Shown here: piece by piece, positions 1 to 26,561 of the stretch
Layout: each line of letters begins with the position of its first letter
Position numbering within the stretch: the first letter of the stretch is position 1
Source: Marivita sp. S6314
Lineage (GTDB): Bacteria > Pseudomonadota > Alphaproteobacteria > Rhodobacterales > Rhodobacteraceae
Reading direction: 5' to 3'
Assembly: GCF_023015985.1 (NCBI RefSeq)
Contig: NZ_JALKAO010000003.1
Coordinates: 434,001 to 498,000, forward strand
DNA: 64,000 bases
Notes under the pieces: generated by a model
The model's database searches: none
What the model saw: the letters and a program-made list of their open reading frames with translations, nothing else
What the model was told of the DNA's origin: nothing
Translations under genes and position numbers: made by a program

Positions 1-904
1 GGGCAGCCTGATCTGTCGCGGTTCGCTGTGGCGGAGAGCACATCCACTTCGCACCTTCGATCCCCGGCTTGTCCAGAACCTCCTCCGTCATGAACAGGTA
101 ATGCGGACAGGTTTCCGCCCAAACCGGTGCCCCGCGCTCCTGCGCGGTGCGAATGGCGGCGGCCCCTTCCGCTGTCGAGATATGAAACAGCATGACAGGC
201 TGATCGAGGTATTCGGCAAACCGGCATATCCGCTCAACCGCCTCGATCTCGGCCATGGGAGGCCGGGACCGGGCGTGATCGCGGGGCGTCGTCTGACCGG
301 CGGCGATCAACGCCTCTTTTGCCTGCGAAATGATCGCGTCGTTCTCGGCATGAACGCACACCAGCGCGCCATACGCCCGCGCCTGTTTGAATATGCGCAA
401 GAGGTCGGCATCCGCCAGTTGGATATTGTAGGTCGTGAACACCTTGAGCGACCGATGCCCCGCGCCAATCAACGCCGCGAGGTCGGCTTCAAACGCATCG
501 ACGGTCGGATCGGTCAGCGTCATGTGAAACGCGTAGTCGATCATCGCCCCGCGCGTGGCGCGGGCTGCGTAATCTGCCACAGTTTTGGCCAAAGACTGTC
601 CACTGGCCTGCGCGGCGAAAGAGATCACGCTTGTGGTGCCGCCCATGGCTGCCGACCGCGTCGCGGATTCAAACGTATCGGCGTTCCACTGTCCCATACC
701 GGACATTTGTTCGATATGTGCATGGGGGTCGACACCGCCGGGCATGACCCATTTGCCTTTTGCCGACACCTCGTTGTCCGCCGCCTCGATGCGTCCGCCA
801 ACCGCCGTGATGGTGCCATCCGTGATTGCGACATCACCGGTGACGATCCCCTCCGGCGTCACAACTTGTCCGTCGCGTATGACCAGATCCGCTTTTCGAG
901 ACAT
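1..904 (-). CDS. Dihydropyrimidinase / hydantoinase-like cyclic amidohydrolase (partial, C-terminus off the left edge)
   Basis: A cytoplasmic metal-dependent amidohydrolase that would open a cyclic amide ring, such as dihydropyrimidine or hydantoin. The visible 301 residues show the family landmarks in order: GGVDPHAHI with metal-binding His61 and His63, the SLKVF segment with the lysine (Lys154) that is carboxylated in this family, VHAEN (His185) and FHIST (His241). The sequence leaves the window within the GAKWMCSPP segment typical of dihydropyrimidinases. The start is the ATG of MSRKADLVIRDG, which leads directly into the amidohydrolase N-terminal strand. It is divergent from iolB. Substrate (pyrimidine, hydantoin or other) cannot be told from this fragment. 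The family is certain; the exact activity is inferred. Confidence 0.88.
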   Translation of the reverse strand, partial: MSRKADLVIRDGQVVTPEGIVTGDVAITDGTITAVGGRIEAADNEVSAKGKWVMPGGVDPHAHIEQMSGMGQWNADTFESATRSAAMGGTTSVISFAAQASGQSLAKTVADYAARATRGAMIDYAFHMTLTDPTVDAFEADLAALIGAGHRSLKVFTTYNIQLADADLLRIFKQARAYGALVCVHAENDAIISQAKEALIAAGQTTPRDHARSRPPMAEIEAVERICRFAEYLDQPVMLFHISTAEGAAAIRTAQERGAPVWAETCPHYLFMTEEVLDKPGIEGAKWMCSPPQRTATDQAA

Positions 905-1993: not shown

Positions 1994-4275
<2,282 letters not shown>

Positions 4276-10031: not shown

Positions 10032-13000
10032 TCAGCACTGATCCAGAAGCGCTTTTGATTCCACGTAATCGGCGGTTTGGTGGCCTTCCGTGATTCTGCC
10101 CAGCACGGGTGACAGCAGGTCAGCCGCTTCCTGATGCGCGCCTGCGTCCAGTAAATGACGCGCCAGATCACGGGAAATCCGCAATTCCCAACCGACGGCA
10201 TTCTGGTCCCGCGCAATGTCCAGCGCGGTGCGAAGATGGGTCCGTGTCTCGGCCAACGACGCGCCGTTTTGCGCGCGGATGGCCGCGTCGATCCTGAGGC
10301 ACTCTGCCAGGTAACACCGTTCGCCGAACTCCTCGATCCGGTCCAGCGCTTTGCGGATTACGCGTTCGGCGTCTCCGCGCCGGTTCTCGCGCAACCGGTT
10401 TTCCGCCAGCATCGCGTAGAACTTGGGAAGCGACGATCCCGTTCCGCTTGCGATATAGCGTTCAAGCGCGCCTTCGATCAGCTTCCCGCCAGCCACCGGA
10501 TCGCCCTGTTCGCTGGTCGCCCAGCCGATCCAGAAATCGCCATGATCCACCCAGACATCCTTGCCCTTGTTGCGCGCAAATTCGGTCCCGGCGCGCGCCC
10601 GGTCAAGCATCAGATCCGGTTCGCGCCGCAAGACATAGATGGACGCCCCAGATGTCAGGGCTTGCGCATAGCTGTAGGGATGGGGGTGCTTGGACACATG
10701 CGCAAACAGTTTGCGTTCCATGTCCGCCGCCGCGTCAGCCTTGCCAAGCAACCACAACAGCCAGCTTCCGTGCTGATATCCCACAACCAGCCGGTCGACC
10801 GCGTATTTATGCGCAAGCTCGGGATCGGTGGACGCGTCGTACTGCGCTTCCATGATGCGCAGATGCGCCAACGCTTCTTCAAAGCGGCCCGCGTAATACA
10901 GCGCCAGACAGCGGGATGTGTGTGCCACGACAATGTGTTCGTGCTTGGCGTCCTGCGTCGCATACTCCACCAGCCGTTCCGAGGCATGCACATTCGCAGC
11001 CACGTTGCCACGGATCATGTGATACGCGTTCAACCCCCACACGATGGGAAACACCTCGGCACTGGAATGCACCTCTTCGGTCAATTGCGCGGCGTGGTTC
11101 AACGCGGCCAGCACATTGGCCGATCCGTGCCCCTCGACCGAAATCAACGTGCGCCCCTTGGCTGAATAAAGCTTCAGTTCCGTTGCCTTGCGCTCTTGTC
11201 CCTGTTCGGTTTTGCCGATCTCGGCCAATCCGTTGGCGAAGTGTGTCAGGGCCTCGGAATGCGCCGAATTGCGCAACGCGATCTGGCCCGCGCTGTACCA
11301 GGCATCTGCGGCCTTGGCGTGATCATTGGCCTTGCTGTGATGATAGGCCAGTCGTTCGGGTTCACGCTGATGCAGATCCGGATGCAGGCGGGCGTAGAGG
11401 GCGACCACCGCCTTGTGCAATTGCACCCGTTGCCGCTTGAGAAGGCACTCATAGGCCGCTTCCTGCAGCAAGGCATGGGTGAATCGCCACGCGCCCTGAC
11501 CGGACGGCCCCGTCGGCTCAAGGATTTTTTGCGCCACCAGCCGGTCAAGCGCCGCGTGAAGCGCATGATCGGACAACCCCGTCAGCTCCGGCAGCAAATC
11601 AAACTCGAAATCCCGTCCCAAAACCGACAGAACCAGCGCCAGTTCGCGGTCCTCCTCAAGCGGATCAAAACGCGCGGTCAATGCGCCGCGAATGGTGGCG
11701 GGTATCGTGGCCGCCCCGTCCGCACCGGGTTGGTAGTCCGACGCAACCAACCGCGTGAGTTCGACAAGATACAGCGGAACACCTTCGCTGCGCCGGACAA
11801 TTGCGGAAACGGCGGCGTCGGGCAGTGTCAGATCTCCGGCTGTCTGCCGCACCAGTGCCGCAGCAGCGGCATCGTCCAGATGCTCCAGCGCGATGGGCGC
11901 ACCCAGACTGTCCGCGATCTGACCGGGTGCCTGGCGTGTGCTGCTGACGATCATGATCGGGTGATCGGCAAGTTCCTCGCGTATCCGCGCGATCAGCTCC
12001 TGCGTCGTGGGGTCAATCCAGTGCAGGTCTTCAACAAGGATCAGCAGAGGGGATCGGCGCGACCGCTCCTTGATATGAGCAACACACAAGGCCAAAAGAG
12101 TCCTGCGCCGATCTGCCGTGTCCAGATCGATCTCGGGCAGCCCGTCGATATTGCCGATCAGATGACCCAGCACATTCTGCACCACCGAGGCGTCAAACCC
12201 GTCACCGCGATAAAACTGCAAAAGCTGCGATGCGTCCGCACCAGAGGCCGCGTGAAGGCCCAGGTGGTCACTAATCCAGTTCGACACCGCGTAAAGAGAC
12301 GTGCTGGCAAACACCTCGTTGCCTTCCCAGACAATGATCTGATCAGGCGCGACATCAATCGAGTTGCGAAGCGCACGCATCAGCCGGGTCTTGCCCGCCC
12401 CCGCTTGTCCGCTCAGAACAACAGATCTGAGCGTGCCTTGCCCCGCTGCGTGCCATTCGGATTTGATATGATCCAGGATCTCGGTCGACCCGGCCAGCGG
12501 TCCGTCGATCAGGCTCAGCATGTTGGCGCTGCGCGCTGCCGGCGTCACATGCCAGGCTTGAACCGTGTCGCCGAACCCCTTCGCCGCGATCTCCTTGGCA
12601 GGCTCAAGGGCGAAGGCGTCACCAACGATGGAGTTGGTCACCGGACAGATAATAACGCCATTGATCCGGGCACTTGATTGAATGCGCGCCGCGAGGTTGA
12701 TGGCCTCACCGGTGATTCCGTCTTGTTCGGAAATGCCGTCCGAATTGATGTCACCGATGATGCAGGTGCCGGACGCGATGCCGATCCTGAGAGACAGGCT
12801 GTGATCCGTGCCCTGCAGACGAAGATCCGTCACCTGATCCGCGATGTTCAGCGCCGCGCGCACGGCTCTTTCAGCGTCGGCATCATGCGCGCGGGGATAT
12901 CCAAACACCGCAATCACGCCATCGCCCGCGAAATGGATGATCTTGCCGCCGTGCTGGTTCAATTCCTGATTGAGCACCCCGCGATACGCGCGCAAAAGTT

Positions 13001-13337
13001 CGCGATAGTCTTCGGGGTCCAGCCGCCTCAGCAGTTTCGTCGACTCGACAATGTCGAAAAACACCGCTGTCAGCTGACGACGCTGCGCATCAATGTTGAT
13101 CAACCCACCGGTGCTGTCATCGGGGGCCGACAATGCGGCCAGCGCCTGTGTCAGCCGGTGGCGGTCGCCGATTGGCAGGTTGAGTTCTTTCAGATCTGTA
13201 TCGGTCAACTGCGCGGCAATGGTCAGATCAATCCGCTGGTCCAGAAAGCTTGGAATGTGATGGTCAAGGCCCGCCTGCGTCAGCAGGTCCACAATGCCGG
13301 CATCGTACCAGCCGTCAGTGCCATCGGTCTTGCCCAC
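10032..13337 (-). CDS. SAM domain / class III nucleotide cyclase / AAA ATPase / TPR signalling protein
   Basis: A predicted multidomain signalling protein of about 1101 residues. In order: a SAM-like helical domain (about 10-75); a class III adenylate/guanylate cyclase domain (about 85-250) with metal aspartates in FFDIVEST and FAGDGVIAVFG; an ATPase with Walker A GQAGAGKT (about 311) and Walker B LLILVEDLHWID (about 436); and a long helical TPR-type C-terminal half. It would make a cyclic nucleotide under control of the ATPase/TPR part. I chose the GTG just after the stop of the upstream lodB-like gene; an ATG at 13406 would overlap that gene by 64 bases and add unconvincing sequence. The gap to lodB-like is five bases, so the two are very likely co-transcribed. 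cAMP versus cGMP is unresolved. Confidence 0.9.
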   Translation of the reverse strand: MGKTDGTDGWYDAGIVDLLTQAGLDHHIPSFLDQRIDLTIAAQLTDTDLKELNLPIGDRHRLTQALAALSAPDDSTGGLINIDAQRRQLTAVFFDIVESTKLLRRLDPEDYRELLRAYRGVLNQELNQHGGKIIHFAGDGVIAVFGYPRAHDADAERAVRAALNIADQVTDLRLQGTDHSLSLRIGIASGTCIIGDINSDGISEQDGITGEAINLAARIQSSARINGVIICPVTNSIVGDAFALEPAKEIAAKGFGDTVQAWHVTPAARSANMLSLIDGPLAGSTEILDHIKSEWHAAGQGTLRSVVLSGQAGAGKTRLMRALRNSIDVAPDQIIVWEGNEVFASTSLYAVSNWISDHLGLHAASGADASQLLQFYRGDGFDASVVQNVLGHLIGNIDGLPEIDLDTADRRRTLLALCVAHIKERSRRSPLLILVEDLHWIDPTTQELIARIREELADHPIMIVSSTRQAPGQIADSLGAPIALEHLDDAAAAALVRQTAGDLTLPDAAVSAIVRRSEGVPLYLVELTRLVASDYQPGADGAATIPATIRGALTARFDPLEEDRELALVLSVLGRDFEFDLLPELTGLSDHALHAALDRLVAQKILEPTGPSGQGAWRFTHALLQEAAYECLLKRQRVQLHKAVVALYARLHPDLHQREPERLAYHHSKANDHAKAADAWYSAGQIALRNSAHSEALTHFANGLAEIGKTEQGQERKATELKLYSAKGRTLISVEGHGSANVLAALNHAAQLTEEVHSSAEVFPIVWGLNAYHMIRGNVAANVHASERLVEYATQDAKHEHIVVAHTSRCLALYYAGRFEEALAHLRIMEAQYDASTDPELAHKYAVDRLVVGYQHGSWLLWLLGKADAAADMERKLFAHVSKHPHPYSYAQALTSGASIYVLRREPDLMLDRARAGTEFARNKGKDVWVDHGDFWIGWATSEQGDPVAGGKLIEGALERYIASGTGSSLPKFYAMLAENRLRENRRGDAERVIRKALDRIEEFGERCYLAECLRIDAAIRAQNGASLAETRTHLRTALDIARDQNAVGWELRISRDLARHLLDAGAHQEAADLLSPVLGRITEGHQTADYVESKALLDQC

Positions 13338-13342
13338 GCCCG

Positions 13343-14431
13343 TTATCTTTCCTGCGCCACGGACGCGTCGCCAGACCGCCGCGCCCAGAACGGGCTCCAG
13401 GTCCATCGCGTTTCCGTCATGTACATTGCGCGGCGTTCGCGTTCATGGGTGTCCCAAACCGATTGCATATGGGCCTCGAACGACGCGAACTCTGCATCGC
13501 CGGTGCGTTGTGCCCATTTAAGCGCTGCAGCGGCGGTTCGTCCATCCTCCAATCCCTGCGCAATCCCTCCGCCGGACAGCGGATCGCGTCCGATGGCGGC
13601 GTCTCCGATCGCCAACCAGTGCGCGCCGCGAAAGGCATCCAGCCGCCGGCTCGTCGCGGCATAGGCCTTTGGCGTCAGCGGTTCGTGCGATGCGTCGAAC
13701 CCGGCCACGATGCGGGTTTTCTCCAGCAAGGCGCGAAACCCATCTGCCTGTGCCGCGTGATGCGCGGCGGGTAGATCGCTGTCGGTCAGAAAGGCAAACA
13801 CGCGTTTGCCGCCGGGAACGGGCGTCGTGTACCACCAGCCGTTTTCGACCGCTTCGATAAACATCGGCTGCGCCGCGCGGCTTTCGCCATTTGGAACAAC
13901 GGCGTGAAAAGCGACAAGGCGATCCTGAACCTGGCCTTTGATGCCAAGCTGGCTTGCCACCACAGCCCGGCGCCCGCTTGCGTCAACAAGAAAGGTGGCC
14001 GCCCGCTCTGTGCCGTTATCCAGATCAAGCCGCCACCCATCGGTGGTTTGCCGAAGGTTTCGCAGTGCAGTGCCGGTGACAACGTCAACACCCACAGACC
14101 GGCACAGATCCTGCAATGCGGCATCAAACGCCGTGCGATCCAGATGCCACCCATGTGTCAACTGGGTCGCGTAGTCGACGCGTGCCACATCAGCCCCGCC
14201 CCAAACCCGGTCGATCCCGGTGCAGACAAGGTGCGTTTCCGAAAGGTGATCCGCAGACACGCCCAATGCCTCCAGATCGCCCTGTGCCGAGGGTGCCAGC
14301 ACCTCTCCGGGTTTTGGCCCGGTCTGACCGGCATCGATAAGGCAGACGGGCATGCCGGAACGGCCCAGTTCAATGGCGCAGGCGCAGCCCGCAGGCCCGC
14401 CTCCAATGACCGCAATCTGCATGCGAAACAT
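13343..14431 (-). CDS. LodB-like FAD-dependent oxidoreductase (probable maturase of the LodA-like oxidase)
   Basis: A 362-residue flavoprotein of the monooxygenase/halogenase-like FAD family. It begins with the dinucleotide-binding IAVIGGGPAGCACAIEL and has the second FAD motif IGDAAIGRDPLSGGGIAQGL. LodB/GoxB proteins of this type are needed to form the cysteine tryptophylquinone cofactor of LodA-type oxidases, and a LodA-like gene is immediately divergent, which is the basis for the call. The ATG preceded by AAAGGGA was chosen; a more upstream ATG lacks such a site. It is followed five bases later by the cyclase gene. Without the neighbour I would only call it an FAD-dependent oxidoreductase. 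Confidence 0.82.
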   Translation of the reverse strand: MFRMQIAVIGGGPAGCACAIELGRSGMPVCLIDAGQTGPKPGEVLAPSAQGDLEALGVSADHLSETHLVCTGIDRVWGGADVARVDYATQLTHGWHLDRTAFDAALQDLCRSVGVDVVTGTALRNLRQTTDGWRLDLDNGTERAATFLVDASGRRAVVASQLGIKGQVQDRLVAFHAVVPNGESRAAQPMFIEAVENGWWYTTPVPGGKRVFAFLTDSDLPAAHHAAQADGFRALLEKTRIVAGFDASHEPLTPKAYAATSRRLDAFRGAHWLAIGDAAIGRDPLSGGGIAQGLEDGRTAAAALKWAQRTGDAEFASFEAHMQSVWDTHERERRAMYMTETRWTWSPFWARRSGDASVAQER

Positions 14432-14540
14432 GTATCCCTTTGAAATCTTACCTTGCGTCAAGCACAGATTCGCTCAAAGCTAGGCCCATTGTGTTGATTT
14501 TTGTAGCTTCTTTCACTTTGAAAATGTTTTGGGGGATTTC
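14432..14540. promoter_or_regulatory. lodB-like / lodA-like divergent promoter region
   Basis: A 109-bp spacer, AT-rich near the lodA-like start, that must contain promoters for both directions. Each gene has a clear purine-rich ribosome site (GGGGGA before the lodA-like ATG, AAAGGG before the lodB-like ATG). No convincing operator symmetry was seen. Confidence 0.45.
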
Positions 14541-17500
14541 ATGGATCTGTCTGCGATCAAGCGATGTGTCATTGCGCCATCCATCGGAATAGCCCGTGTG
14601 GGCAACGCGCCCGCGCAATATTTCATCGGCCCGGAATACCCCGGTCAGAAGGTCAGACCCGAAGGGGGGTTCAAGGATCATTCTGGTCGGATCAAGCGAC
14701 AGGCCGCCCGGTTTCGGATCTACGCGCTCGACAAGAATGACAAGGTTCTGGGCGAGGTCGCCCCGGATGTTGCCGAGATCACGTGGCATGCGCATCTGGC
14801 CAACCGCAAGGGTGCGTTTCTGAAATTCGAAGACCGCTATGTCATGGGTGAAACATTCATCGCCGATGCGCCGCCGATCACGCCGGAAAACAAGACACAT
14901 ATCCGGAATGCGGATTATTCGGGTGACCGGTCGGACCTGATCATTGATCCCGGCCCACGCGAGATCACCGGCTGTGATGCGGGTCCGGTGCGGTTCGATG
15001 GTGGTACCTTCATCAAGCAAGAGGTCCCGCTGGGAGAGTTGCGCACCGATGCGGACGGGCGTCTTCTGGTGCTGGGCGGCTTTGGCAAATCAGCGTCGGT
15101 CAAGCCGAACAACCCGACAGAGTCCTATGCCAATTCCGACTGGTGGCATGACGATGTATCCGACGGCCCCGTGCGGGCAGAGGTTCATTTGCCCGATGGC
15201 ACGGAAATCGACGTGCGCCCGGCGCATGTCATCGTTGCACCGCCGAACTATGCGCCTGACATTGAAAACCTGCGCACGTTGTATGACGTCTGCCGCGATG
15301 TCGGGCACGAAATGGGTCTGCCACGGGACAAGGGCCCGGTATCGTTCAAGTCCGACGTCTTTCCCTTGCTGGCGCGCATGGCGCGCACACAGTGGGTCAA
15401 CGAACAAGCGCGGCGCGGGCATGGCCCCGGGGAAGGCGGGGATTTCCTGAACCCTGCGATGCTTGATACGCTGAGCCTGAACGCGAAATCGGCACGCGGG
15501 AAATCGGCCTCCAAGACAGAGCTGGATGCAGCAGCGCTGGCGCGGAAAAAGATCTTTGAACGCTTGCGGAACCCAAACCTTGATCCGGACTCGCCCGAGG
15601 CCAAGGACCAGGCCAACTATCGCTTCATGCCGATGCTCGCGGGCGACGCCGGGGATTGCGAGGAAGGCAGCCCGAAACACTGGATGTGCCTTCTGAAATC
15701 GCAATATGCGGTCCTGGAGGCCTGGGCCAAGGGTGATTTCGCCGATGATTGGGATGGGCGGCCGCCGATTTGGCCCAAGTTCGAAGAGATTGATCTGCAA
15801 GACAGACCACACGCCCTGACCCAAGGGGCGTTGCAGCCCTGCGTGGGTGGGCCGTTTTTCCCCGGGATTGAAATTACCTTCATCAGCCAGTTGAAGGAGC
15901 TGTATTCAGAACCCTTCGTCATCAATCCCAAGATCGAGGCCGGGCAACTTACGCAATACATGGCCGTGCCGTGGCAGTCTGATTTCTACCAGTGCCACAC
16001 CCATTGGTGGCCCGCGCAGCGCCCCGATGATGTGGTGTCTGAAAAGACCTACAAAGCCGTGATCCGCGATGTCCAAAGCGAGATCACAAATGACGGAACA
16101 GAATACCGCGCCGAACAGTTGCCGGGCCTTCTGCCGCCGGGAAGTGATGCGCAACGGGTGACATGGGCCCGCGAACGCTTTGCCCACCGCGAAGAATGGG
16201 CGCGCGGCGTGGAAACCAGCTTTGATGGACACCTGCCCAAGAAATGGGACAGCCCCGACGCCCGTGGGTCAAATGCGCTTGTCGAGCTTTGGGACGAATT
16301 GGGCTTTGTCGTCGGACGCCCGTCACCTGTTCCCAAGTCGCTGCGCCAGTTGCGCCAAACCGGCGGCAAGGACAGTGCGGCTGACGCTTCGGCGCTCTGG
16401 ACGCCGGAAGACCAGACCGTACAGGTCGAAACCGAACGCACGCCGTTTGCCGGGATCAATCTGCGCGAATTTTACTATTACCTGTCCAACATCGACAGCT
16501 ACCCTGAATTTTTGCCCAAGGCGCGCTGGCTCACGGATTACCTGCTTAAACGGTCATGGGATCATCAGTTCGAACAGGGATATCCCGAAAGCTGGCGGTT
16601 CTTTGAATACTCGGAAGAACTCTACGACACCCGGATGCAGCGCATCTATGACGAGATGGTGCAGTCCGGATTGAACTATGATCCGGCCGACCCCAAGGAC
16701 AATCCGAACTTCCGCACCCGCGAGGAATTCCTCGTCCGGATCACGAACTTTGCGCCCCTGAACCAGAACGACGGCGCGTGGCTGCACAAGGCCACACCCG
16801 CCGGACCGCTGGATGAAGTGCAGTCGCTGTTGTTCTCGATCTGGATGGACGAGGCCGGCGACGGCGAGGTTCATCAGAACCATTGCAACATCTACACAGG
16901 CCTTCTGAAGAGCCTCGGGATCTACCTGCACGACCCGCGCAGCCGAGCCTATGCGATGGACGACCGCTTCCTTGACAGCGCTTTTGCGGTCCCGGTTCTG
17001 GAATTGGCGATTGCCCAGTTTTCGCAGGAATACATCCCCGAACTGATCGGCTTTACGCTCCAGCTGGAATGGACGGTTCCGGGGCTCTATCCGGTGGAAA
17101 AGATGTGCGAATACTTCGGTGTTGATCCGCATTTCTACCGGCTGCACATCGGGATCGACAATGCCGCCGATGGGCATGGCGCCAAGGCCAAGGAGGCGGT
17201 GAAGCTGTATCTGGATCAGGTCCGCGCCCGTGGCGGCGAACAGGCGATGCGCGACCATTGGCGACGGATCTGGAACGGGTTCCTTGCCTTTGGCGATACC
17301 GGCACGTTGGGCCAGGATCTTGTCGACAAGATCCACCAGATGCGCTCTGAAACGCCCGAGGCCGAGGTGCTTCGGATTATCGAGGAAAAGGCCAAGTACG
17401 GGGCGCTGAACCACCGGGACAAAACCATAGGTCCCAACCTGATCAACGACTGGTTCCTGGATCCGGAAAAGTTCGCCGAAGCGCTGGTAGATGCGGGCTA

Positions 17501-18128
17501 CATCGTTCCCGGTCGTCCGGACAAGTCGCGTTTCTTTGAACTGACAAGTTTTAACGGCCCGATGTTCAAGGTGTTCAACGATGAAGAACTGGCGGCCTGG
17601 CGCCGCTGGACGCTGTGGCTGGAAGACCGGGATAGGGCAGGGACCAAGCCGATTGTCGATCCGGGCGTTGCGATGGCCGAACTGGTCGAACGCCTGCAGA
17701 TGCAGGCGCAGGGCGAAAAGGCGCATGATGCCAAGCTGCTAAAAGGCATTGATCCCGAAACCGGCAAAGCCGTCAGCGAAAACGTGTCATGGTGGCTGGC
17801 GCAGGTCCGCAACGGCACAGAGGAAAACACCTTTGCGTTCATGCGGGCCTTAGCGGACCCCGAAAACGGCATGATCACACCGGGAAGTGTCAGCGACAGC
17901 GTCATTGTGCAGGATTACCTGGGGGCCGACAGCCGCATGGGACAGGCGTTTGAACGGTCTGACCATCTGGGCCGGACGTTCCGCAATGTGATCGTTGCAT
18001 GGATCAACGCGGGATGCCCGATACCCGCAACCCCACCATCGCGGTCTGCGCCAAGTGCGCTGGAGAACATGCCACCGCCCGACGTGCATCCGCGTCCTCG
18101 GGTTCGTGGCATGGGTGGCATTCACTAG
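14541..18128 (+). CDS. LodA/GoxA-like protein, candidate CTQ-dependent amino-acid oxidase
   Basis: A very long (1195-residue) LodA-family protein. Known members are quinoproteins that oxidatively deaminate lysine or glycine, releasing NH3 and H2O2. The N-terminus IGIARVGNAPAQYFIGPEYP is the family hallmark. The segment DFYQCHTHWWPAQRPDDV supplies Asp481 and Cys485 with the same four-residue spacing as Asp512/Cys516 of LodA; Trp553 (or Trp542) is the candidate tryptophan for the crosslinked cofactor. It is much longer than the roughly 700-residue LodA, with a large C-terminal extension beyond about residue 700. No signal peptide is visible. The ATG is preceded by GGGGGA. It heads a run of three enzymes. 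The amino-acid substrate is unknown. Confidence 0.83.
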   Translation: MDLSAIKRCVIAPSIGIARVGNAPAQYFIGPEYPGQKVRPEGGFKDHSGRIKRQAARFRIYALDKNDKVLGEVAPDVAEITWHAHLANRKGAFLKFEDRYVMGETFIADAPPITPENKTHIRNADYSGDRSDLIIDPGPREITGCDAGPVRFDGGTFIKQEVPLGELRTDADGRLLVLGGFGKSASVKPNNPTESYANSDWWHDDVSDGPVRAEVHLPDGTEIDVRPAHVIVAPPNYAPDIENLRTLYDVCRDVGHEMGLPRDKGPVSFKSDVFPLLARMARTQWVNEQARRGHGPGEGGDFLNPAMLDTLSLNAKSARGKSASKTELDAAALARKKIFERLRNPNLDPDSPEAKDQANYRFMPMLAGDAGDCEEGSPKHWMCLLKSQYAVLEAWAKGDFADDWDGRPPIWPKFEEIDLQDRPHALTQGALQPCVGGPFFPGIEITFISQLKELYSEPFVINPKIEAGQLTQYMAVPWQSDFYQCHTHWWPAQRPDDVVSEKTYKAVIRDVQSEITNDGTEYRAEQLPGLLPPGSDAQRVTWARERFAHREEWARGVETSFDGHLPKKWDSPDARGSNALVELWDELGFVVGRPSPVPKSLRQLRQTGGKDSAADASALWTPEDQTVQVETERTPFAGINLREFYYYLSNIDSYPEFLPKARWLTDYLLKRSWDHQFEQGYPESWRFFEYSEELYDTRMQRIYDEMVQSGLNYDPADPKDNPNFRTREEFLVRITNFAPLNQNDGAWLHKATPAGPLDEVQSLLFSIWMDEAGDGEVHQNHCNIYTGLLKSLGIYLHDPRSRAYAMDDRFLDSAFAVPVLELAIAQFSQEYIPELIGFTLQLEWTVPGLYPVEKMCEYFGVDPHFYRLHIGIDNAADGHGAKAKEAVKLYLDQVRARGGEQAMRDHWRRIWNGFLAFGDTGTLGQDLVDKIHQMRSETPEAEVLRIIEEKAKYGALNHRDKTIGPNLINDWFLDPEKFAEALVDAGYIVPGRPDKSRFFELTSFNGPMFKVFNDEELAAWRRWTLWLEDRDRAGTKPIVDPGVAMAELVERLQMQAQGEKAHDAKLLKGIDPETGKAVSENVSWWLAQVRNGTEENTFAFMRALADPENGMITPGSVSDSVIVQDYLGADSRMGQAFERSDHLGRTFRNVIVAWINAGCPIPATPPSRSAPSALENMPPPDVHPRPRVRGMGGIH

Positions 18129-18140
18129 GAGGGCGACGTC

Positions 18141-19763
18141 ATGGACTTGAAATACGCAGTGATCGGTGGCGGCGTCGCGGGGACCTATGTGGCGTGGCGG
18201 CTGGTCACCAGCGGCGCAGGGGCGGGGAAAACACAGTTGTTCGAATACAGCGACCGTATCGGCGGGCGTCTCTATTCCAAGAAACTGCCCGGCATGCCCA
18301 ACATTCCAGCCGAACTCGGCGGCATGCGGTTTTTGCCGACCAGCCATCTTTTGGTGAAGTCCATTGTCGATAAACTGGGCCTGCCAACACAGCCCTTCCT
18401 GATGGGCAATCCCGCCCCGGTCGATCCAAACGATCCCGATGGACCCAAAATCGGCCAGAGCCGGAATATGCTATTCCTGCGCGGGACGCATCTGACCAAT
18501 GCCGATTTGAAAGACGCCGCGAAGGTGCCCTACAAACTTGCCGCGGATGAGCGAGGCCTGTCGCCGACCGACCTGCAGATAAAGGTGATGAAACAGCTTG
18601 CCGGAGACCGCTACAATTCGCTGACCACCGAAGAATGGTGCGATGTGATGGCGATGGGTGAGCCACTTTACAAGATCGGCTACTGGAACCTGCTGGCCCA
18701 GTATCTGTCCTCCGAAGCGTATCACTTCATGCAGGATGGCGGCGGGTATGATGCCAATACGGCCAACACAAATTCAGTCTATCAATTGCCCGCCACGGAA
18801 TACGGCGATGTTCCGGTGCATTACAAATGCCTGGCGGACGGGTACCAGTCTCTGCCCCTGACGCTTGAGAAACAGCTCAAGGACCACAACGGTCTGCCGA
18901 CGCAAATGCAATCGGCGTTGTCCCATATCGAACGGATCAAGGGGGGCTACCGGCTCACCTTCAAGCGCACGCAGGATATCGACGGGCACTACCAGATCCC
19001 GCCGGATTGCGAGACCTTTCAGGTCGAGGCAGAGCACGTCATTCTGGCGATGCCGCGCCGGTCGCTGGAACTGGTGGATTGGGCAGATTTTGAAGCGGAT
19101 GATTGGCTGCGAAGCAATCTCAAAAGCGTCGCGATCCAAAAGGCGTTCAAGCTGCTTCTGGGCTTCGAGGAGCCATGGTGGCGCAAGCTTGGCCTTGTTG
19201 CCGGACGGTCCACGACGGACCTGCCGCTGCGGCAGACATATTACTTCCCGTCGGAAGAAGATTTCAGCCCGGACGACGGCAACAAGAGCGCGATGCTTCT
19301 GGCCACCTATAGCGATATGGCAACCGTCCCGTTCTGGCGCGGTCTGGAACATGCGGCGCCGTTCACAGGGCACGACACGCCCTTCACCAAAGGCCAATCG
19401 CCTGTCCCGGCAACCGAGACACCGGTCACCGGTCAGATGGTGAATGCCGCTGTCAAACAATTGGGCGAATTGCACGGCCTGTCGGATGTGCCAAAGCCCT
19501 ACACCGCGCTGTACCACGACTGGAGCGCCGATCCCTATGGCGGCGGCTGGCACGAATGGAAGGCGGGCTACCGGTTCCCGGACGTGATCCCGAAGATGCT
19601 GCAACCGGTGGATGACGAACAGGTCTACATCTGCGGCGAGGCCTATTCGACCGATCAGGGCTGGGCTGAAGGGTCTCTCGCCACGGCTGAAACCATGCTG
19701 CAAAAGCACCTGAACCTCGACCGGCCTTCATGGATTGATGCCGACTGGAAGCTGGGCGGCTGA
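18141..19763 (+). CDS. FAD-dependent amine / L-amino-acid oxidase family protein
   Basis: A 540-residue flavin amine oxidase. The FAD-binding Rossmann start YAVIGGGVAGTYVAWRL is followed by the GG-doublet SDRIGGRLYS, and the C-terminal CGEAYSTDQGWAEGSLATAE closes the FAD site as in monoamine and L-amino-acid oxidases. No signal peptide is present. A strong GGAGG lies just before the ATG, 12 bases after the lodA-like stop, so it is in the same operon. It would convert an amine or amino acid to an imine/2-oxo acid with H2O2 production. It could act on the same substrate as the LodA-like protein or on its product; the sequence does not decide. Confidence 0.85.
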   Translation: MDLKYAVIGGGVAGTYVAWRLVTSGAGAGKTQLFEYSDRIGGRLYSKKLPGMPNIPAELGGMRFLPTSHLLVKSIVDKLGLPTQPFLMGNPAPVDPNDPDGPKIGQSRNMLFLRGTHLTNADLKDAAKVPYKLAADERGLSPTDLQIKVMKQLAGDRYNSLTTEEWCDVMAMGEPLYKIGYWNLLAQYLSSEAYHFMQDGGGYDANTANTNSVYQLPATEYGDVPVHYKCLADGYQSLPLTLEKQLKDHNGLPTQMQSALSHIERIKGGYRLTFKRTQDIDGHYQIPPDCETFQVEAEHVILAMPRRSLELVDWADFEADDWLRSNLKSVAIQKAFKLLLGFEEPWWRKLGLVAGRSTTDLPLRQTYYFPSEEDFSPDDGNKSAMLLATYSDMATVPFWRGLEHAAPFTGHDTPFTKGQSPVPATETPVTGQMVNAAVKQLGELHGLSDVPKPYTALYHDWSADPYGGGWHEWKAGYRFPDVIPKMLQPVDDEQVYICGEAYSTDQGWAEGSLATAETMLQKHLNLDRPSWIDADWKLGG

Positions 19764-19788
19764 CCGACACCCCGCAGGAGAACACCCC

Positions 19789-21528
19789 ATGACCACGCAA
19801 CAGATCACCGTGTCTGATTACCTCATCAGACGTCTGCGCGAACACGACGTTCGTCACATCTTTGCGGTGCCGGGGGATTACATCGGCGACTTTCTGGATG
19901 TGGTCGACGAAGCGGATGGCGTGGAACGGATCGCCACGGTCAATGAATTGGAGGCCGGGTTTGCGGCGGATGGCTATGCCCGGTCCTGCGGTCTGTCCTG
20001 TGTCGCGCTGCAATACGGTGTCGGCACCTATAGCGCGCTGAATGCCATTGCGGGTGCGATGCGCGAACGGGTGCCGATCGTGCTGGTCACCGGGGCACCC
20101 AGTGCGACCGCGCGCGAGCACCTGGAATCCTACGGCATCGTGTTTCACCATTCGACCTCCGAAGACATGGATGTCGATGCCAGGGTCTTTGCCAATGTCA
20201 CCGTCGCCACCGAGGTGATAAAATCCGCCGAAGGCGCGGCAGAGGCCATCGACCGCGCCTTGGCTGAAGCACTGGCGCAACAGGCCCCGGTCTATATCCA
20301 GATCTGGAAAGACGTGCAGCGCGCCAAGATCGACCCACCCACAGGGCCAATGCCGGTCAAGAAACCCCCGGCATCATGGCCCGATGCGATCAATGCCGCG
20401 CTCGATGCCACGGTTGCGCGACTGAAGGCGGCCAAACACCCGGTGTTCTGGGTCGGGCTAGAGATGCAGCGCCTTGGCATGAACGAAGAGCTGTCCAGAC
20501 TGATCCACGTGTCCGGCATCCCGTTTACCACGACCATTCAGGCCAAGGGCATCGTCAAGGAAACCGATCCCATGCATTTCGGCACCTTCGCCGGGGCCGC
20601 GTCGAGCAAGGATGTCATCGACATCATGCACAACGCCGATCTGATCCTTGAACTGGGGGCGATCCCCATCGACTACTACAAGAACTTCGTGATCGAAAAA
20701 TTCGACCAGACGGTGTCGGTCCAACGCGATCTGGTGCGTATCGGGTCCGCAAAATATGACGGTGTCCATTTCCGCGATTTCGTGACGGCCCTGATCCAGC
20801 GCTTCGAAGACGACCCCAGCCTGCGCGGCGGTACGACGGGCATGATGCGGCCGCTGACGCGCCCCGACCCCGATACGGCACCTTTGACCTATGAAAACAC
20901 CTTCCACGAACTCAACAGACGGTTGCAGGACGAAACCGGTGTGTTCTGCGACCTCGGCATCAGCATGTTCATGGGAGCAAGGCTTGAAATCAAACGCGCC
21001 AACGGGTTCACCTGCCAGTCGGACTGGATGTCGCTGGGATACGCAGTTCCGGGCGCGTTGGGTTTTGCCTTGCACGACGGGCGACCGCTGTTTGCAATCG
21101 CAGGCGACGGCAGTTTCCAGATGACCGCGCAGGCGCTGTCCACCTATGCGCGGCTGACCAGGGAATGGAAACGCGATCCGTCGTTCCACATCACCATCCT
21201 TGTCATCGACAATGGCACCTATGGTTTGGAACAGTGCTTCACTGGGTTGGGGGCCTTCATCGAGAAGAAAGACGGGACCGGCTACGAAGAGAACTTTGAC
21301 GATTACAACCTTCTGGCGCGTTGGGACTACGCCAATATGGCAGAGTCCCTTGGCCTTGTGGGCGTTCGGGCCGACACTGTTGGGGATTTGAAAACCGCCC
21401 TAGACGACGCGCGCAAGAACACGGTACCGACCCTGATCCAGACCAAGGTGGACAAGCACGATCTGCCCCCCGAGCTGTTTGCGCTGGTGGCCAGTTTCAA
21501 GCCGAAACAGCCACCACCCGAGGCGTGA
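19789..21528 (+). CDS. Thiamine-diphosphate 2-oxo acid decarboxylase (pyruvate/indolepyruvate decarboxylase family)
   Basis: A 579-residue ThDP enzyme that removes CO2 from a 2-oxo acid to give an aldehyde. It has the catalytic glutamate in NELEAGFAADGYAR (Glu53), the paired histidines GIVFHHSTS (His120-His121) that distinguish pyruvate/indolepyruvate-type decarboxylases from acetolactate synthases, and the cofactor motif GDGSFQMT ... IDNGTYG. A CAGGAGAA ribosome site precedes the ATG, 25 bases after the amine-oxidase stop. As third gene of the run it could consume the 2-oxo acid made by the two upstream oxidases. The substrate (pyruvate, phenylpyruvate, indolepyruvate or branched) is not determined. 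Confidence 0.88.
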   Translation: MTTQQITVSDYLIRRLREHDVRHIFAVPGDYIGDFLDVVDEADGVERIATVNELEAGFAADGYARSCGLSCVALQYGVGTYSALNAIAGAMRERVPIVLVTGAPSATAREHLESYGIVFHHSTSEDMDVDARVFANVTVATEVIKSAEGAAEAIDRALAEALAQQAPVYIQIWKDVQRAKIDPPTGPMPVKKPPASWPDAINAALDATVARLKAAKHPVFWVGLEMQRLGMNEELSRLIHVSGIPFTTTIQAKGIVKETDPMHFGTFAGAASSKDVIDIMHNADLILELGAIPIDYYKNFVIEKFDQTVSVQRDLVRIGSAKYDGVHFRDFVTALIQRFEDDPSLRGGTTGMMRPLTRPDPDTAPLTYENTFHELNRRLQDETGVFCDLGISMFMGARLEIKRANGFTCQSDWMSLGYAVPGALGFALHDGRPLFAIAGDGSFQMTAQALSTYARLTREWKRDPSFHITILVIDNGTYGLEQCFTGLGAFIEKKDGTGYEENFDDYNLLARWDYANMAESLGLVGVRADTVGDLKTALDDARKNTVPTLIQTKVDKHDLPPELFALVASFKPKQPPPEA

Positions 21529-21981
21529 TCATTCGGGAAGTTCGTACCAGCCCTCAAAGTCGGAAAAGCCAATGATGCCGTCTTCGTTGCGTTTCGGGTT
21601 GGGCATGACCTGGTAGACCATCTTCCATTTGAATTCGCCCTGCACCCCTTTGAACTTGCCGGTGCTGTCGCCGGTAAAGAACGACTTGCCCTGCAACTGT
21701 CCCGGCTCGTCTGCCGGATCGGCGATCCAGCGCAGGTAGCAATAATCGCCGTCTTCATCGGTGATGATGCAATACCCCTTGGCCTCGACGGTTTTCCCGT
21801 CGACCATTTCGTTCATGCCGGGGCAGCGCCACGCGGTGCCATCAAGGAACGACCCTTTGCCTTTGTGGTTCACAAACGGACCGTTGAATTCGCCCAGCCA
21901 CAGCATGTGGTTTGGACCGTCGATTTCGTGGACCTTACCGCTTGTCAAATAGCAATGATGCCCCGTGATGGACTCGCGCAT
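21529..21981 (-). CDS. Hypothetical protein, small beta-rich
   Basis: A 150-residue soluble protein rich in Gly, Asp, Trp and Tyr. Alternating hydrophobic patterns (HCYLTSGKVHEID, YCYLRWIADP, KWKMVYQVMP) suggest a beta-barrel or sandwich. Its FTGDSTGKFKGVQGEFKWK segment resembles lipocalin- or allene-oxide-cyclase-like barrels, but I cannot name a family. The ATG has an AAGGGGG ribosome site. Its stop codon abuts the stop of the convergent decarboxylase with no spacer. It may have nothing to do with the oxidase run because it is transcribed the other way. Confidence 0.72.
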   Translation of the reverse strand: MRESITGHHCYLTSGKVHEIDGPNHMLWLGEFNGPFVNHKGKGSFLDGTAWRCPGMNEMVDGKTVEAKGYCIITDEDGDYCYLRWIADPADEPGQLQGKSFFTGDSTGKFKGVQGEFKWKMVYQVMPNPKRNEDGIIGFSDFEGWYELPE

Positions 21982-22189: not shown

Positions 22190-24379
22190 TTGCGTCTGAT
22201 CAACACTCTTGCAGGAGCGCAGACTATTCGACTTTTGGTAACACTGTTTGGCGGATTGTTGGTTGCCGCCATGTCCTGTGTGCTGGCGATTTCATTTACG
22301 GCGATTGTGTATTCCGGTCCGCTGGAGGTGTTTCTTGATCGTGGGATCGGGATGACACTGATTGCCTGCGGAGTGATGGCGGGTATCGGGTCTTTCCTGT
22401 TTTCCTATCGCGCGACCGTCATGCATCCGCAGGACATCACCGCGGTTCTTTTGGCCGCCGGAGCATCAGCCATCGCTGTACAGGGAAGCGGTTTGTCCCC
22501 GGATGCCCTGTTTGCCAGTATCGTGGTGATGATGATCACGGCGTCTGTCACGACGGGTGTCGTCTTGATCCTGATCGGGAAACTCAAGCTCAGCTACGTG
22601 GTCAAGTTCATCCCCTATCCCGTGTTGGGCGGCTTTCTCGCTTCAACGGGATATCTGCTTTTGATCGGGAGCATCGGGTTGGTGCTGCGTGCGAATGTCT
22701 CGGTGGGGGATATCCCGTCGTTGTTTCGTCCCGACACGGTCATGGTCTGGCTTCCGTGGTTTCTCGTGTCCATCGGGATCTGTGCCGTAACGAGATACGT
22801 CAAAAACGGCCTGGTGCTGCCGGGATGTATCGCGCTGGTGTGCTTTGGGTATTACGCTTGGTTGCTGATCTCGGGCACCAGCATTGCCGCTGCGCGCGCT
22901 TCAGGCGAATTGCTTGGACCTTTCAGCAGCGGGGGATTCCTGACTGACATCCGCCCCCAAGACATCTTTCTGGCCGATGTGTCGCTGGTGGCTGGGCAGG
23001 CTTTGACAATTCTTGCGGTCACGTCAATGGCGATCCTTGGCGGCGCGTTGAACCTGACCGGCGTGGAACTGATCACGAAACGACGGCTGAACCTCAATCA
23101 GGACACCACCGCGATGGGGGTGTCGACGCTTGTGGCCGCACCTGCCGGTGGCTTGCTGGGGTTTCCCGCGCTGTCGAACAATATCCTGGCCTATAAACTG
23201 GGCCTGCGCGGGGCGACGACGGGCCTCATGGTTGCGGTGGTGTCCTTTGGCGTTGCCTTTTTCGGGGCGTCGGCGCTGGAATATCTTCCCCGTGGCCTGT
23301 TTGCTGCGGTGATCGGGTTTCTGGGGATCGACCTGCTCTACACATGGCTCTGGTCGGAACGCCGCCGTCTCAATCTGCGCGATTACCTGATCATTCTGCT
23401 GACCGTTATCGTGTCGGCCACGCTTGGCTTCCTGTCCGCTCTGGCGCTGGGCCTCATTGCGTCGGTGGTGCTGTTTATCGTGTCCTACGCCAAGCAGGGC
23501 ATCGTCCGGATCCAATCCAACCTGTCGCTGCGCCGGTCCGTTGTCGAACGCGGGTTGGCGGCGCTTGATCATCTGACGGTCGAGGGCACATCGACGGAAA
23601 TCATCGAATTGACCGGCTACATCTTCTTCGGAACGGCCAGCAAACTTCTGGGTGCCGTGCAGTCCGCCGTCGAAGGCTCACAGGGCGCGATGGCAAACCT
23701 GCTGCTCGACTTTTCGAAGGTCCAGGGCATCGACCCGTCTGCGGTTCACAGCCTGCAGCAGATTGACGAATACTGCACGCGTCAGGGGGTTGACCTGTAC
23801 GTCTCGGGCCTGTCGGCGCAAGACCGTGTTCAGGTGGACCGGTTTCTGAACGGCGCCACCTTGGGCAAGGCGGTGTTTGCAACACTGGATGATGCGTTGC
23901 TGTTTCTGGAGGAACGCGTTCTTGCCGAAGCCGAAGGCGGCGCAACCGGGGCGGAAAGCTTTGAAGAAGCGCTGCTGCGTGACAACCCGCACATCAACCT
24001 TGAGGACTGGTTTCCGGTCGTACATGTCAAACAGGGCGACACCTTCCTGTTTTCCGGTGCACCGTCGAACGAACTGCTGATCCTGCAATCGGGCAGCGCG
24101 AAAGTGTTTGTCGAAATGGATGACGGCACCCGGACCTGCGTCGCGCAGTTGCTGTCCGGGGCGCTTGTCGGAGAGATCGGATTTTTCACCAACACACGCC
24201 GCACGGCCGATGTGGAAGCGGCAGCGGAATCGGTGGTTGTCAGGATCAGCCGTGATGCGCTTCAGGCGTTGCTTGACAGCGATCCGGCCTTCGTGGCGAG
24301 CTTTCACGCCCTCGCGGCCGAATTCCTGTCGCGGCGTCTGGACCGCACCACCAAACTGCTCAGCGCTGCGATGCGGTGA
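22190..24379 (+). CDS. SulP-family anion transporter with STAS and cyclic-nucleotide-binding domains
   Basis: A 729-residue inner-membrane transporter. Residues about 10-425 form the multi-helix SulP core, 440-550 a STAS domain (GAMANLLLDFSKVQGIDPSAVHS segment, broken here only by naming), and 600-720 a cNMP-binding fold whose cassette GEIGFFTNTRRTADV retains the phosphate-contacting arginine. Known SulP proteins carry sulfate, bicarbonate or other anions; the substrate here is unknown. The start is uncertain: the open frame begins with a TTG and its first ATG lies inside the first membrane helix; an AGGAG at about 22211 precedes rare possible starts. Fusion of a nucleotide sensor suggests ligand-gated transport. 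Confidence 0.87.
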   Translation: MRLINTLAGAQTIRLLVTLFGGLLVAAMSCVLAISFTAIVYSGPLEVFLDRGIGMTLIACGVMAGIGSFLFSYRATVMHPQDITAVLLAAGASAIAVQGSGLSPDALFASIVVMMITASVTTGVVLILIGKLKLSYVVKFIPYPVLGGFLASTGYLLLIGSIGLVLRANVSVGDIPSLFRPDTVMVWLPWFLVSIGICAVTRYVKNGLVLPGCIALVCFGYYAWLLISGTSIAAARASGELLGPFSSGGFLTDIRPQDIFLADVSLVAGQALTILAVTSMAILGGALNLTGVELITKRRLNLNQDTTAMGVSTLVAAPAGGLLGFPALSNNILAYKLGLRGATTGLMVAVVSFGVAFFGASALEYLPRGLFAAVIGFLGIDLLYTWLWSERRRLNLRDYLIILLTVIVSATLGFLSALALGLIASVVLFIVSYAKQGIVRIQSNLSLRRSVVERGLAALDHLTVEGTSTEIIELTGYIFFGTASKLLGAVQSAVEGSQGAMANLLLDFSKVQGIDPSAVHSLQQIDEYCTRQGVDLYVSGLSAQDRVQVDRFLNGATLGKAVFATLDDALLFLEERVLAEAEGGATGAESFEEALLRDNPHINLEDWFPVVHVKQGDTFLFSGAPSNELLILQSGSAKVFVEMDDGTRTCVAQLLSGALVGEIGFFTNTRRTADVEAAAESVVVRISRDALQALLDSDPAFVASFHALAAEFLSRRLDRTTKLLSAAMR

Positions 24380-25670: not shown

Positions 25671-25913
25671 GATGCCTCCCTGTGTCGTTTGGGGGCAGGG
25701 GGCACGACAGCCCGTATGGTGTCAAGCAATGGTCGCCCGCCGGGTGCCGGTTTCGTCCTTCTCTGAGACCTCCTGCAGTACGCCCCACATGCGCGCCACG
25801 CCGGGGAGCAAACCGAAAGATGTCTTTTCTCATGTCCGGAACATAGTCATAGATATCGTAGGGATAGACCAAGACGGCATTTGGTGTCGCGCCCGCGCTC
25901 GGGGAGGAGCCAC
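25671..25913. promoter_or_regulatory. Divergent intergenic region, pepT / cNMP-binding membrane protein
   Basis: A 243-bp spacer between divergent genes. A GGGGAGGAG ribosome site precedes the plus-strand gene. A short open frame on the minus strand here has no support as a gene. No clear operator or promoter hexamers were recognised. Confidence 0.35.
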
Positions 25914-26561
25914 ATGGACCTGTTGACCAATCTTCATTGGATCGAAGTTGTGGGCTGGCTGGCCTCTGCGCTGACGGTTGCCTCCTACTCGGTCAGTACA
26001 ATGCTGCCCCTGCGCTTTCTGGCGATTACCTCGTCGCTGTGTTTTGCAACCTACGCCTTCACGCTCCAGCTCTGGCCGCTTCTGGCGATGGAACTGATCT
26101 TGCTCCCCATCAATCTCTATCGCTTCTGGCAGGTGCTGTCTTTGCGCGGCAAGCTGACCAAGGACAGCAGCCGGACAGAGACCGATTTCTCGGTGATCCG
26201 GCGCTATGGCAAACAACAGCGCTACGCCGCCGGGGCCACGGTCTTTGGGCAGGGCGATACGGTGGATCAGCTGTATTACGTGGCCGAAGGGCGCGTTCAG
26301 ATCGAAGAACCGAATATTGAATTGAACCAAGGCGACATCTTTGGCGAAATCGGTTTTTTCACCGATGCAGCCATACGAACCGCCACCGTCCGCTGTCTTG
26401 ATGATACCGTGGTTTACGGCATTGATGAAAAGACGTTCATGCGACTGCAGTTCGAAGACCCGAGCTTTGGTCTTGCCATCATGCGGACGATCACACGCCG
26501 CCTGATCGAGAACGTGAACCGGGATGCCGGGTCCGCAGCGGGCACCCCCGCGCCTGCGTAA
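25914..26561 (+). CDS. Membrane protein: CBU_0592-like helices plus cyclic-nucleotide-binding domain
   Basis: A 215-residue paralogue of the cNMP-binding membrane protein near 9.5 kb. Three hydrophobic segments (residues about 10-75) form the membrane module, and residues about 95-205 form a cNMP-binding fold. The phosphate-binding cassette is canonical, FGEIGFFTDAAIRTATV, including the Arg missing from the other copy, so it may truly bind cAMP or cGMP. No DNA-binding domain is present. The start has a strong GGGGAGGAG ribosome site. It stands alone between pepT and the manganese transporter. Output function is unknown; a receptor for the nearby cyclase is possible. Confidence 0.85.
   Translation: MDLLTNLHWIEVVGWLASALTVASYSVSTMLPLRFLAITSSLCFATYAFTLQLWPLLAMELILLPINLYRFWQVLSLRGKLTKDSSRTETDFSVIRRYGKQQRYAAGATVFGQGDTVDQLYYVAEGRVQIEEPNIELNQGDIFGEIGFFTDAAIRTATVRCLDDTVVYGIDEKTFMRLQFEDPSFGLAIMRTITRRLIENVNRDAGSAAGTPAPA

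Follow-up and report, generated by a model that had tools for sequence, protein, structure and literature searches.

A conserved six-gene block of Marivita sp. S6314 with a LodA-like quinoprotein fused to a diiron domain and a putative arginine oxidase–decarboxylase pair

The 64,000-nucleotide stretch of Marivita sp. S6314 analysed here (contig NZ_JALKAO010000003.1, positions 434,001–498,000; hereafter the window) contains a block of six genes at 10032–21981. In order, these encode a cyclase/AAA protein, a LodB/GoxB-like maturase, a LodA-like oxidase, an L-amino acid oxidase, a thiamine diphosphate (ThDP) decarboxylase and a small orphan protein. The plus-strand centre of the block is a core trio. 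Its first gene (14541–18128, from the ATG at 14541) encodes a LodA-like protein of 1195 aa in which a candidate cysteine tryptophylquinone (CTQ) oxidase and a haem-oxygenase-like diiron (HDO) domain are fused. The second (18141–19763) codes for an L-arginine oxidase-type L-amino acid oxidase of 540 aa that uses flavin adenine dinucleotide (FAD), and the third (19789–21528) for a pyruvate/indolepyruvate-type 2-oxo acid decarboxylase of 579 aa. A first-pass annotation had placed these three genes on the plus strand at 14541–21528 with gaps of 12 and 25 bases, and both the open reading frames (ORFs) and the Pfam matches bear this out. While the trio was described correctly, the fused PF14518 domain, the divergent maturase, the flanking cyclase, the orphan and the arginine-oxidase residues had been overlooked. 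The ATG of the flavin oxidase gene is preceded by AGGAGG and that of the ThDP enzyme gene by AGGAG, both resembling ribosome-binding sites. Between 14000 and 22300, the numbers of sigma-70-like promoter sites (3 versus 2.8 expected) and terminator-like sites (9 versus 7.6 expected) are near chance.

The complete block is also found at locus L009 of an uncultured Roseobacter sp., where neither the order nor the strand of any of the six genes differs. Amino-acid identities range from 57–85% (cyclase 67%, maturase 57%, LodA-HDO fusion 81%, flavin oxidase 82%, decarboxylase 74%, orphan 85%). Retention of the trio at 81, 82 and 74% exceeds chance. Across the six genes, synonymous sites are near saturation (proportion of differences, pS, 0.65–0.80) and the corresponding value for non-synonymous sites, pN, is 0.09–0.29. 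The surroundings of the block have changed. Ten L009 ORFs outside the block were compared with the 64-kb window; nine of them, among which are the immediate neighbours of the block at either end, match nothing there. The remaining ORF, 4 kb upstream of the L009 block, has a 35% match at window positions 8–883, 9 kb upstream of the window block. The gene that follows the orphan encodes an E1-type dehydrogenase in L009 versus a SulP-STAS-cNMP (cyclic nucleoside monophosphate) protein in the window. Thus, the low pN, near-saturated pS and preserved order amid changed neighbours indicate an island that is larger than the run first annotated, with all six genes under purifying selection.

The flavin oxidase matches PF01593 (94 bits), and its best PDB match is the L-arginine oxidase AROD (EC 1.4.3.25) of Pseudomonas sp. 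TPU 7192 (8jt7/8t8a), which aligns over nearly the whole length at 495 bits; the lysine oxidase AncLLysO scores 297 bits. The pocket residues Gln350 and Glu493 and an ATEYS lid have been described for this enzyme (PMC11694665). By alignment, the window equivalents are Q333, E472 and ATEYG. The lid is numbered 222–226 in that paper and 229–233 by the deposited chain, while Gln350, Glu493 and G213–E215 agree with the chain numbering. Among 20 aligned sequences (the window protein and 19 homologs), the full Gln/Glu/ATEY set occurs only in the window, in L009 and in locus L067 of Pseudoalteromonas; 17 of the 19 homologs are without it, four of these retaining Gln alone. In all three cases with the full set, a full-length keto-acid decarboxylase adjoins the oxidase. 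Since the selectivity residues and the lid are complete and AROD is the top solved relative, L-arginine appears to be the best-supported substrate. An identity above 70% to known arginine oxidases has been taken as the criterion for this class, according to PMC8405998; the assignment made here is by bit score and residues and not by percent identity. The window oxidase further differs from AROD in being paired with a decarboxylase.

In the ThDP enzyme, the TPP_enzyme N, M and C domains each exceed their Pfam cut-offs. The His-His motif that had been pointed out in the first-pass annotation is present as H120-H121, and D30, E53 and E481 align to the other catalytic positions. We take these five residues to be the catalytic positions of ThDP decarboxylases. 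Among family models, that of indolepyruvate decarboxylase scored 247 bits, short of its cut-off of 946, and that of phenylpyruvate decarboxylase 227 bits. An arginine-oxidase-linked decarboxylase subfamily was also considered but found no support. The shared Glu-Gln motif is also found in enzymes from Rhizobium (L121), Nonomuraea (L119) and locus L080, and the tree support is 0.80.

A gene for a ThDP enzyme, identified by a PF02776 search, adjoins that of the flavin oxidase on the same strand and within ~3 kb in 10 of 14 genomes. By genus, the count is four of eight (present in g1, g56, g181 and g479; absent from g44, g472, g394 and g631). There are 1–10 PF02776 genes per genome, and chance adjacency is estimated at roughly 2% per genome. 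The count covers genomes in which the flavin oxidase match exceeded 100 bits. In the first set, 36 of 390 genomes matched, of which 13 (the Marivita genome and 12 others) exceeded 100 bits and 23 with short or partial matches below 40 bits were left out. In a second set, 41 of 398 matched; apart from Marivita, a score above 100 bits was reached only in G1149 and in G370, which had been counted already. Gene order varies: the oxidase leads in the window, L067 and L080, and the ThDP enzyme leads in g56 and g181. The enzymes of the latter two (L072 and L078) are without the His-His motif, which suggests that different ThDP subfamilies were recruited. The proposal that the trio converts an amino acid via a 2-oxo acid to an aldehyde is therefore upheld for the flavin oxidase and decarboxylase, given the adjacency in 10 of 14 genomes and in both gene orders, but not for a LodA-like enzyme acting in the same chain.

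A comparable pair has been described in Pseudoalteromonas luteoviolacea, where an L-amino acid oxidase (Pl-LAAO) and an indolepyruvate-type decarboxylase lie in a putative operon with a suggested keto-acid role (PMC6316408). As described there, that operon differs from the window in carrying Spondin_N and a two-component system and no LodA. The nearest Pseudoalteromonas pair identified here is that of P. piscicida (L067). The P. luteoviolacea oxidase has a broad substrate range (PMC6316408), and the window decarboxylase lies closest to the indolepyruvate and phenylpyruvate models. Both points suit an Ehrlich-type route in which the oxidase and decarboxylase serve other or broader amino acids, such as aromatic or branched-chain ones, to yield aldehydes. 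This alternative deserves consideration but is somewhat unlikely, since the arginine selectivity residues and lid are kept as in just 3 of 20 sequences, and the arginine oxidase leads the solved relatives by ~200 bits. A route that oxidises arginine by way of 2-ketoarginine and 4-guanidinobutyrate has been described (PMC2242806). Among the five PF00491 ureohydrolases encoded in the Marivita genome, there may be one that acts on 4-guanidinobutyrate.

The LodA-like protein may be considered in terms of a quinoprotein region and a C-terminal-side HDO domain. LodA_N spans residues 13–232 (243 bits, cut-off 26.3) and LodA_C residues 371–497 (102 bits, cut-off 25). The CTQ motif D481-F-Y-Q-C485-H-T-H-W489-W490 is encoded at 15981–16010; C485 and W490 align with C516 and W581 of LodA, and D481 with the conserved Asp position. 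In its domains and aligned residues, the protein qualifies as a candidate CTQ oxidase. The NCBIfam equivalog models of GoxA (glycine oxidase) and LodA (lysine oxidase) scored 380 of 750 and 217 of 600 bits, respectively, each under its cut-off. The HDO domain (Haem_oxygenas_2/PF14518) covers residues 735–910 (16743–17270; 66.5 bits, cut-off 28.9). Seven candidate metal ligands, E771, H781, E834, E843, H869, D873 and H879, assigned by motif spacing, are invariant in all seven aligned sequences (four fusions and three standalone HDO proteins). The commonest ligand set of HDO enzymes is 3His/3-carboxylate, with 3His/4-carboxylate in a smaller group (PMC13108848), and the sequence of the window domain would fit either. 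A structure prediction of the fusion from a three-row alignment had a mean predicted local distance difference test (pLDDT) score of 33.9, too poor for checking the diiron geometry. Searches for a twin-arginine translocation (Tat) signal gave no match in any of the four fusions (threshold E ≤ 0.01 for the window protein, E ≤ 1 for the others); weak matches (E 0.06–0.1) occur in three of seven LodA relatives without an HDO domain.

The maturase gene (13343–14431, minus strand, with an ATG at 14431 or 14422) is divergent from the oxidase gene. The 109-base spacer between them (14432–14540) is a probable promoter region. The NCBIfam scores of the maturase are each under the equivalog cut-off (GoxB 217 of 400, LodB 186 of 400, QhpG 168 of 240 bits), and its best PDB match is QhpG (7ctq, 73 bits). 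The LodA-like protein thus has the usual flavoprotein partner of its family, but divergently placed.

The CTQ loop of the fusions is compact. Cys485 and Trp490 are 5 residues apart; this distance is 5 in all four fusions versus 13–37 in 23 of 23 LodA-like relatives without an HDO domain, and 65 in LodA itself (Cys516–Trp581; PMC4417212). The count comprises these four fusions and 23 relatives, of which several are near copies, five have long N-terminal extensions and one (L024) was matched by a loose pattern; L021 and L129 were left out. The split LodA proteins L007/L008, which have no HDO domain, also have a 5-residue loop and were kept apart from the count. The four fusions form one clade (support 0.885, or 0.979 without L010). 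Five LodA relatives (L003, L006, L018, L019 and L131) have open frames of ~1000 aa and are probably N-terminally extended like the published catalase-domain fusions.

A short CTQ segment of this kind is also found in the gamma subunit (QhpC) of quinohemoprotein amine dehydrogenase (QHNDH), with D-x3-C-x3/4-W-W-P-A-Q-x-P-D common to both and the window motif aligning with D33/C37/W42-W43. Against the 1jmx gamma subunit, E was 0.005 for the window segment alone, 0.0008 for a four-fusion profile and 0.003 when two split-LodA segments were added. The second gamma subunit, 1jju, was weaker with the same three queries (0.05, 0.21 and unlisted). The gamma-subunit family PF08992 gave weak matches in all four fusions (E 0.003–0.046), below the cut-off (window 17.8 of 25 bits), and none at E ≤ 5 in seven proteins without an HDO domain, a setting in which the HMMER filters drop most matches over 0.1. 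The segment is short, and its homology to QHNDH gamma is no more than suggestive. According to PMC7876137, every tryptophylquinone enzyme keeps an Asp close to its cofactor. QHNDH resembles the window system further in that QhpG is related to the window maturase. It differs in that the window segment sits within a 1195-aa protein of the LodA fold family. A QhpD-type radical S-adenosylmethionine (SAM) maturase was not found in the Marivita genome, where three matches at 22–26.5 bits (cut-off 453) were at a level also seen in control genomes.

A split LodA locus is present in two genomes of the same genus as the window (L122:4902-13236 and L123, from genomes G013 and G012), with gene scans made on L122. 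It encodes a weak LodA_N-like protein (E 0.014) and a LodA_C-like protein with a 5-residue CTQ loop joined to a ferritin-like domain. Further genes encode a berberine-type FAD oxidase and two proteins that fall short of their model cut-offs, a QhpD-like radical SAM protein (316 of 453 bits) and a QhpG-like flavoprotein (215 of 240 bits). From its gene content, this locus looks like a LodA/quinohemoprotein hybrid. It is conceivable, if quite improbable, that the fusions bridge the two CTQ families, with a loop homologous to that of QHNDH gamma. The fused diiron domain would in that case hydroxylate the enzyme's own Trp in cis while the cofactor is being made, and the flavoprotein would complete the process. 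If so, the split LodA of the two genomes, with its short loop, in-chain ferritin-like domain and QhpD/QhpG-like neighbours, would be a second case.

In other genomes the two parts of the trio stand apart. LodA-HDO fusions of Xanthobacter autotrophicus (L010) and of a Paraburkholderia caribensis plasmid (L011) have a flavoprotein gene directly downstream, and no flavin oxidase or decarboxylase within 10–12 kb on each side. The genes after the Paraburkholderia fusion (L011:16903-24524) include a methyltransferase, a member of the octopine/nopaline dehydrogenase family, a phytanoyl-CoA dioxygenase and a tyrosinase, a possible biosynthetic cluster. Conversely, the P. piscicida plasmid (L067) carries the oxidase/decarboxylase tandem with no LodA within 20 kb; a LodA-like gene lies ~190 kb away on the same plasmid. 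Full-length LodA-HDO fusions are rare in the searched genomes. Besides the Marivita genome, none was found among 195, 385 and 388 genomes (partly overlapping sets in which the best candidates per genome were scored). A peptide-pattern scan of genome contigs, which finds close relatives, gave two fusion relatives among eight stretches; among 64 plasmid records with a match, a single one reached 80% coverage of the fusion query.

These arrangements bear on the idea that all three enzymes act as one chain, with LodA-HDO on the same metabolite line as the oxidase and decarboxylase and perhaps making an arginine- or guanidine-derived product. The short gaps between the genes and their joint conservation in L009 fit this idea. 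The best match of the HDO part among relatives in the PDB is 9pfw, an iron-containing redox enzyme (E 0.06), with 9pfx (PbrRohS) at E 1.1; neither is significant, and the two serve as a lead only. RohS is an enzyme of the azomycin pathway. HDO enzymes are also known to oxidise arginine derivatives, as SznF does with N-methyl-arginine (PMC13108848). A single chain is nevertheless unlikely, given that LodA-HDO occurs without the oxidase/decarboxylase pair in Xanthobacter and Paraburkholderia, that the pair occurs without a nearby LodA in P. piscicida, and that the RohS match is not significant. The co-oriented run itself is kept in a second species, and the three-gene neighbourhood thus recurs in L009, while elsewhere its modules are separate.

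With moderate confidence, the block is best read from its sequence as a conserved metabolic island of two oxidation modules, an arginine oxidase/decarboxylase pair and a CTQ-HDO quinoprotein with its maturase. The pair would constitute an arginine-oxidase route within the cell. From L-arginine, the flavin oxidase would most likely form 2-ketoarginine along with NH3 and H2O2; decarboxylation of 2-ketoarginine by the ThDP enzyme would then yield 4-guanidinobutanal. In the other module, a CTQ quinoprotein fused to the diiron HDO domain would be matured by the divergent GoxB/LodB-like flavoprotein. Its quinone would most likely deaminate an amino acid or primary amine via a Schiff base to give H2O2 and NH3, and the HDO domain would most likely carry out a further reaction with O2, either on that nitrogen compound or on a related one. 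The maturase's neighbour, the cyclase/AAA protein, is a likely signalling or regulatory partner. What the sequences show directly is the order of the genes, the preservation of all six as a unit in one relative, the domains, and the retained cofactor, candidate ligand and selectivity residues; substrates, reaction order, coupling between the modules, cell location and regulatory role are inferred.

As both modules are predicted to form H2O2, the island could instead exist to generate peroxide, for use in competition or in dispersing biofilms, which is the role proposed for LodA and AlpP (PMC4417212); the keto-acid step would then be incidental. A gene of the peroxidase family at 1994–4171 would be in keeping with this, yet it lies outside the conserved block. 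The decarboxylase would have no purpose in such a system, and the fusions gave no Tat-signal match, so that peroxide would probably be formed inside the cell. A peroxide generator is accordingly a distinctly improbable reading. The peroxidase-family gene (minus strand, 725 aa) is catalase-peroxidase-like, with PF00141 matched at 231 bits in two stretches, and lies ~10 kb from the oxidases.

Several observations weigh against the two-module island with arginine as substrate. The model for 5-guanidino-2-oxopentanoate decarboxylase (PRK07524) scored 130 of 500 bits, below the 247 bits of the indolepyruvate decarboxylase model, although a score short of the cut-off counts against family membership and not against the proposed reaction. 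The decarboxylase groups weakly with a Pseudoalteromonas decarboxylase (support 0.80, 34% identity). At L080, a decarboxylase of the same type adjoins a flavin oxidase without the arginine residues, and the adjacency of oxidase and ThDP enzyme thus supports a 2-oxo acid link generally and not arginine in particular. The block contains no aldehyde dehydrogenase or ureohydrolase gene. The modules are separate elsewhere, so a shared pathway need not exist, and the whole run was found in no more than two related genomes, that of the window and that of L009. The last two points would also suit an accident of one lineage without functional linkage. Preservation of the block order despite near-saturated synonymous sites and changed adjoining genes makes such an accident very improbable indeed.

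The first gene of the block (10032–13406, minus strand, 1124 aa) overlaps the maturase gene and encodes a protein with guanylate-cyclase-type (Guanylate_cyc, 61 bits) and AAA_16 (58 bits) domains and a SAM_1 match (22.6 bits) just under its cut-off of 23. The last (21529–21981, minus strand, 150 aa) encodes the orphan, which has no Pfam match at E ≤ 10. Its matches within the order are confined to 4 of 196 genomes, strongly in Marivita and at 21–28 bits in three others, and a prediction from a two-row alignment had a mean pLDDT of 35.3. A cyclase (PF00211) lies within ~6 kb of the flavin oxidase in 3 of 14 genomes. More broadly, CTQ or flavin amino acid oxidases repeatedly have cyclase/AAA and cNMP-binding proteins as neighbours, both in the window (10032–13406, 22190–24379 and 25881–26561) and at L122, L123, L072 and L073, the cNMP-binding proteins being near oxidases at all four of these loci. 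A cyclic-nucleotide link to the oxidases is possible; L009 has no SulP-cNMP gene at the matching place.

Compared with the LodA/GoxA family CTQ oxidases and their LodB/GoxB partners from Marinomonas and Pseudoalteromonas, the window system shares LodA_N, LodA_C, the CTQ Cys and Trp, the conserved Asp and an adjacent LodB/GoxB-like gene. It differs in its C-terminal-side HDO domain, its compact Cys-Trp spacing and a maturase gene that is divergent and not downstream. Five LodA-PF14518 fusions were listed in 2015 from Actinoplanes, Burkholderia, Calothrix, Paenibacillus and Rhizobium (Campillo-Brocal et al., PMC4417212). These have the same two domain types in one chain; by the published description, however, PF14518 is on the N-terminal side there, and the section that lists them mentions no flavin oxidase or decarboxylase neighbours. 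The earlier statement that no pathway with this gene combination has been described holds, within the literature searched, for the three genes together but less so for the parts, as the oxidase/indolepyruvate decarboxylase operon and the LodA-PF14518 fusions are published. That literature, open-licence papers, yielded no report of the trio as a combination, of the six-gene island, of a CTQ loop of 5 residues or of a LodA/QhpD hybrid. The combination and the compact cofactor loop of the quinone enzyme look new, while the parts are of known kinds.

If the two-module reading is right, a conserved oxidase/decarboxylase island would gain a defined substrate hypothesis in L-arginine, and the LodA-type enzyme would join quinone and diiron chemistry in one polypeptide. 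The evolutionary relation between LodA and QHNDH would become testable through the common compact CTQ segment and the related flavoprotein maturases. Two testable gains emerge, the assignment of arginine as substrate and the compact CTQ loop.

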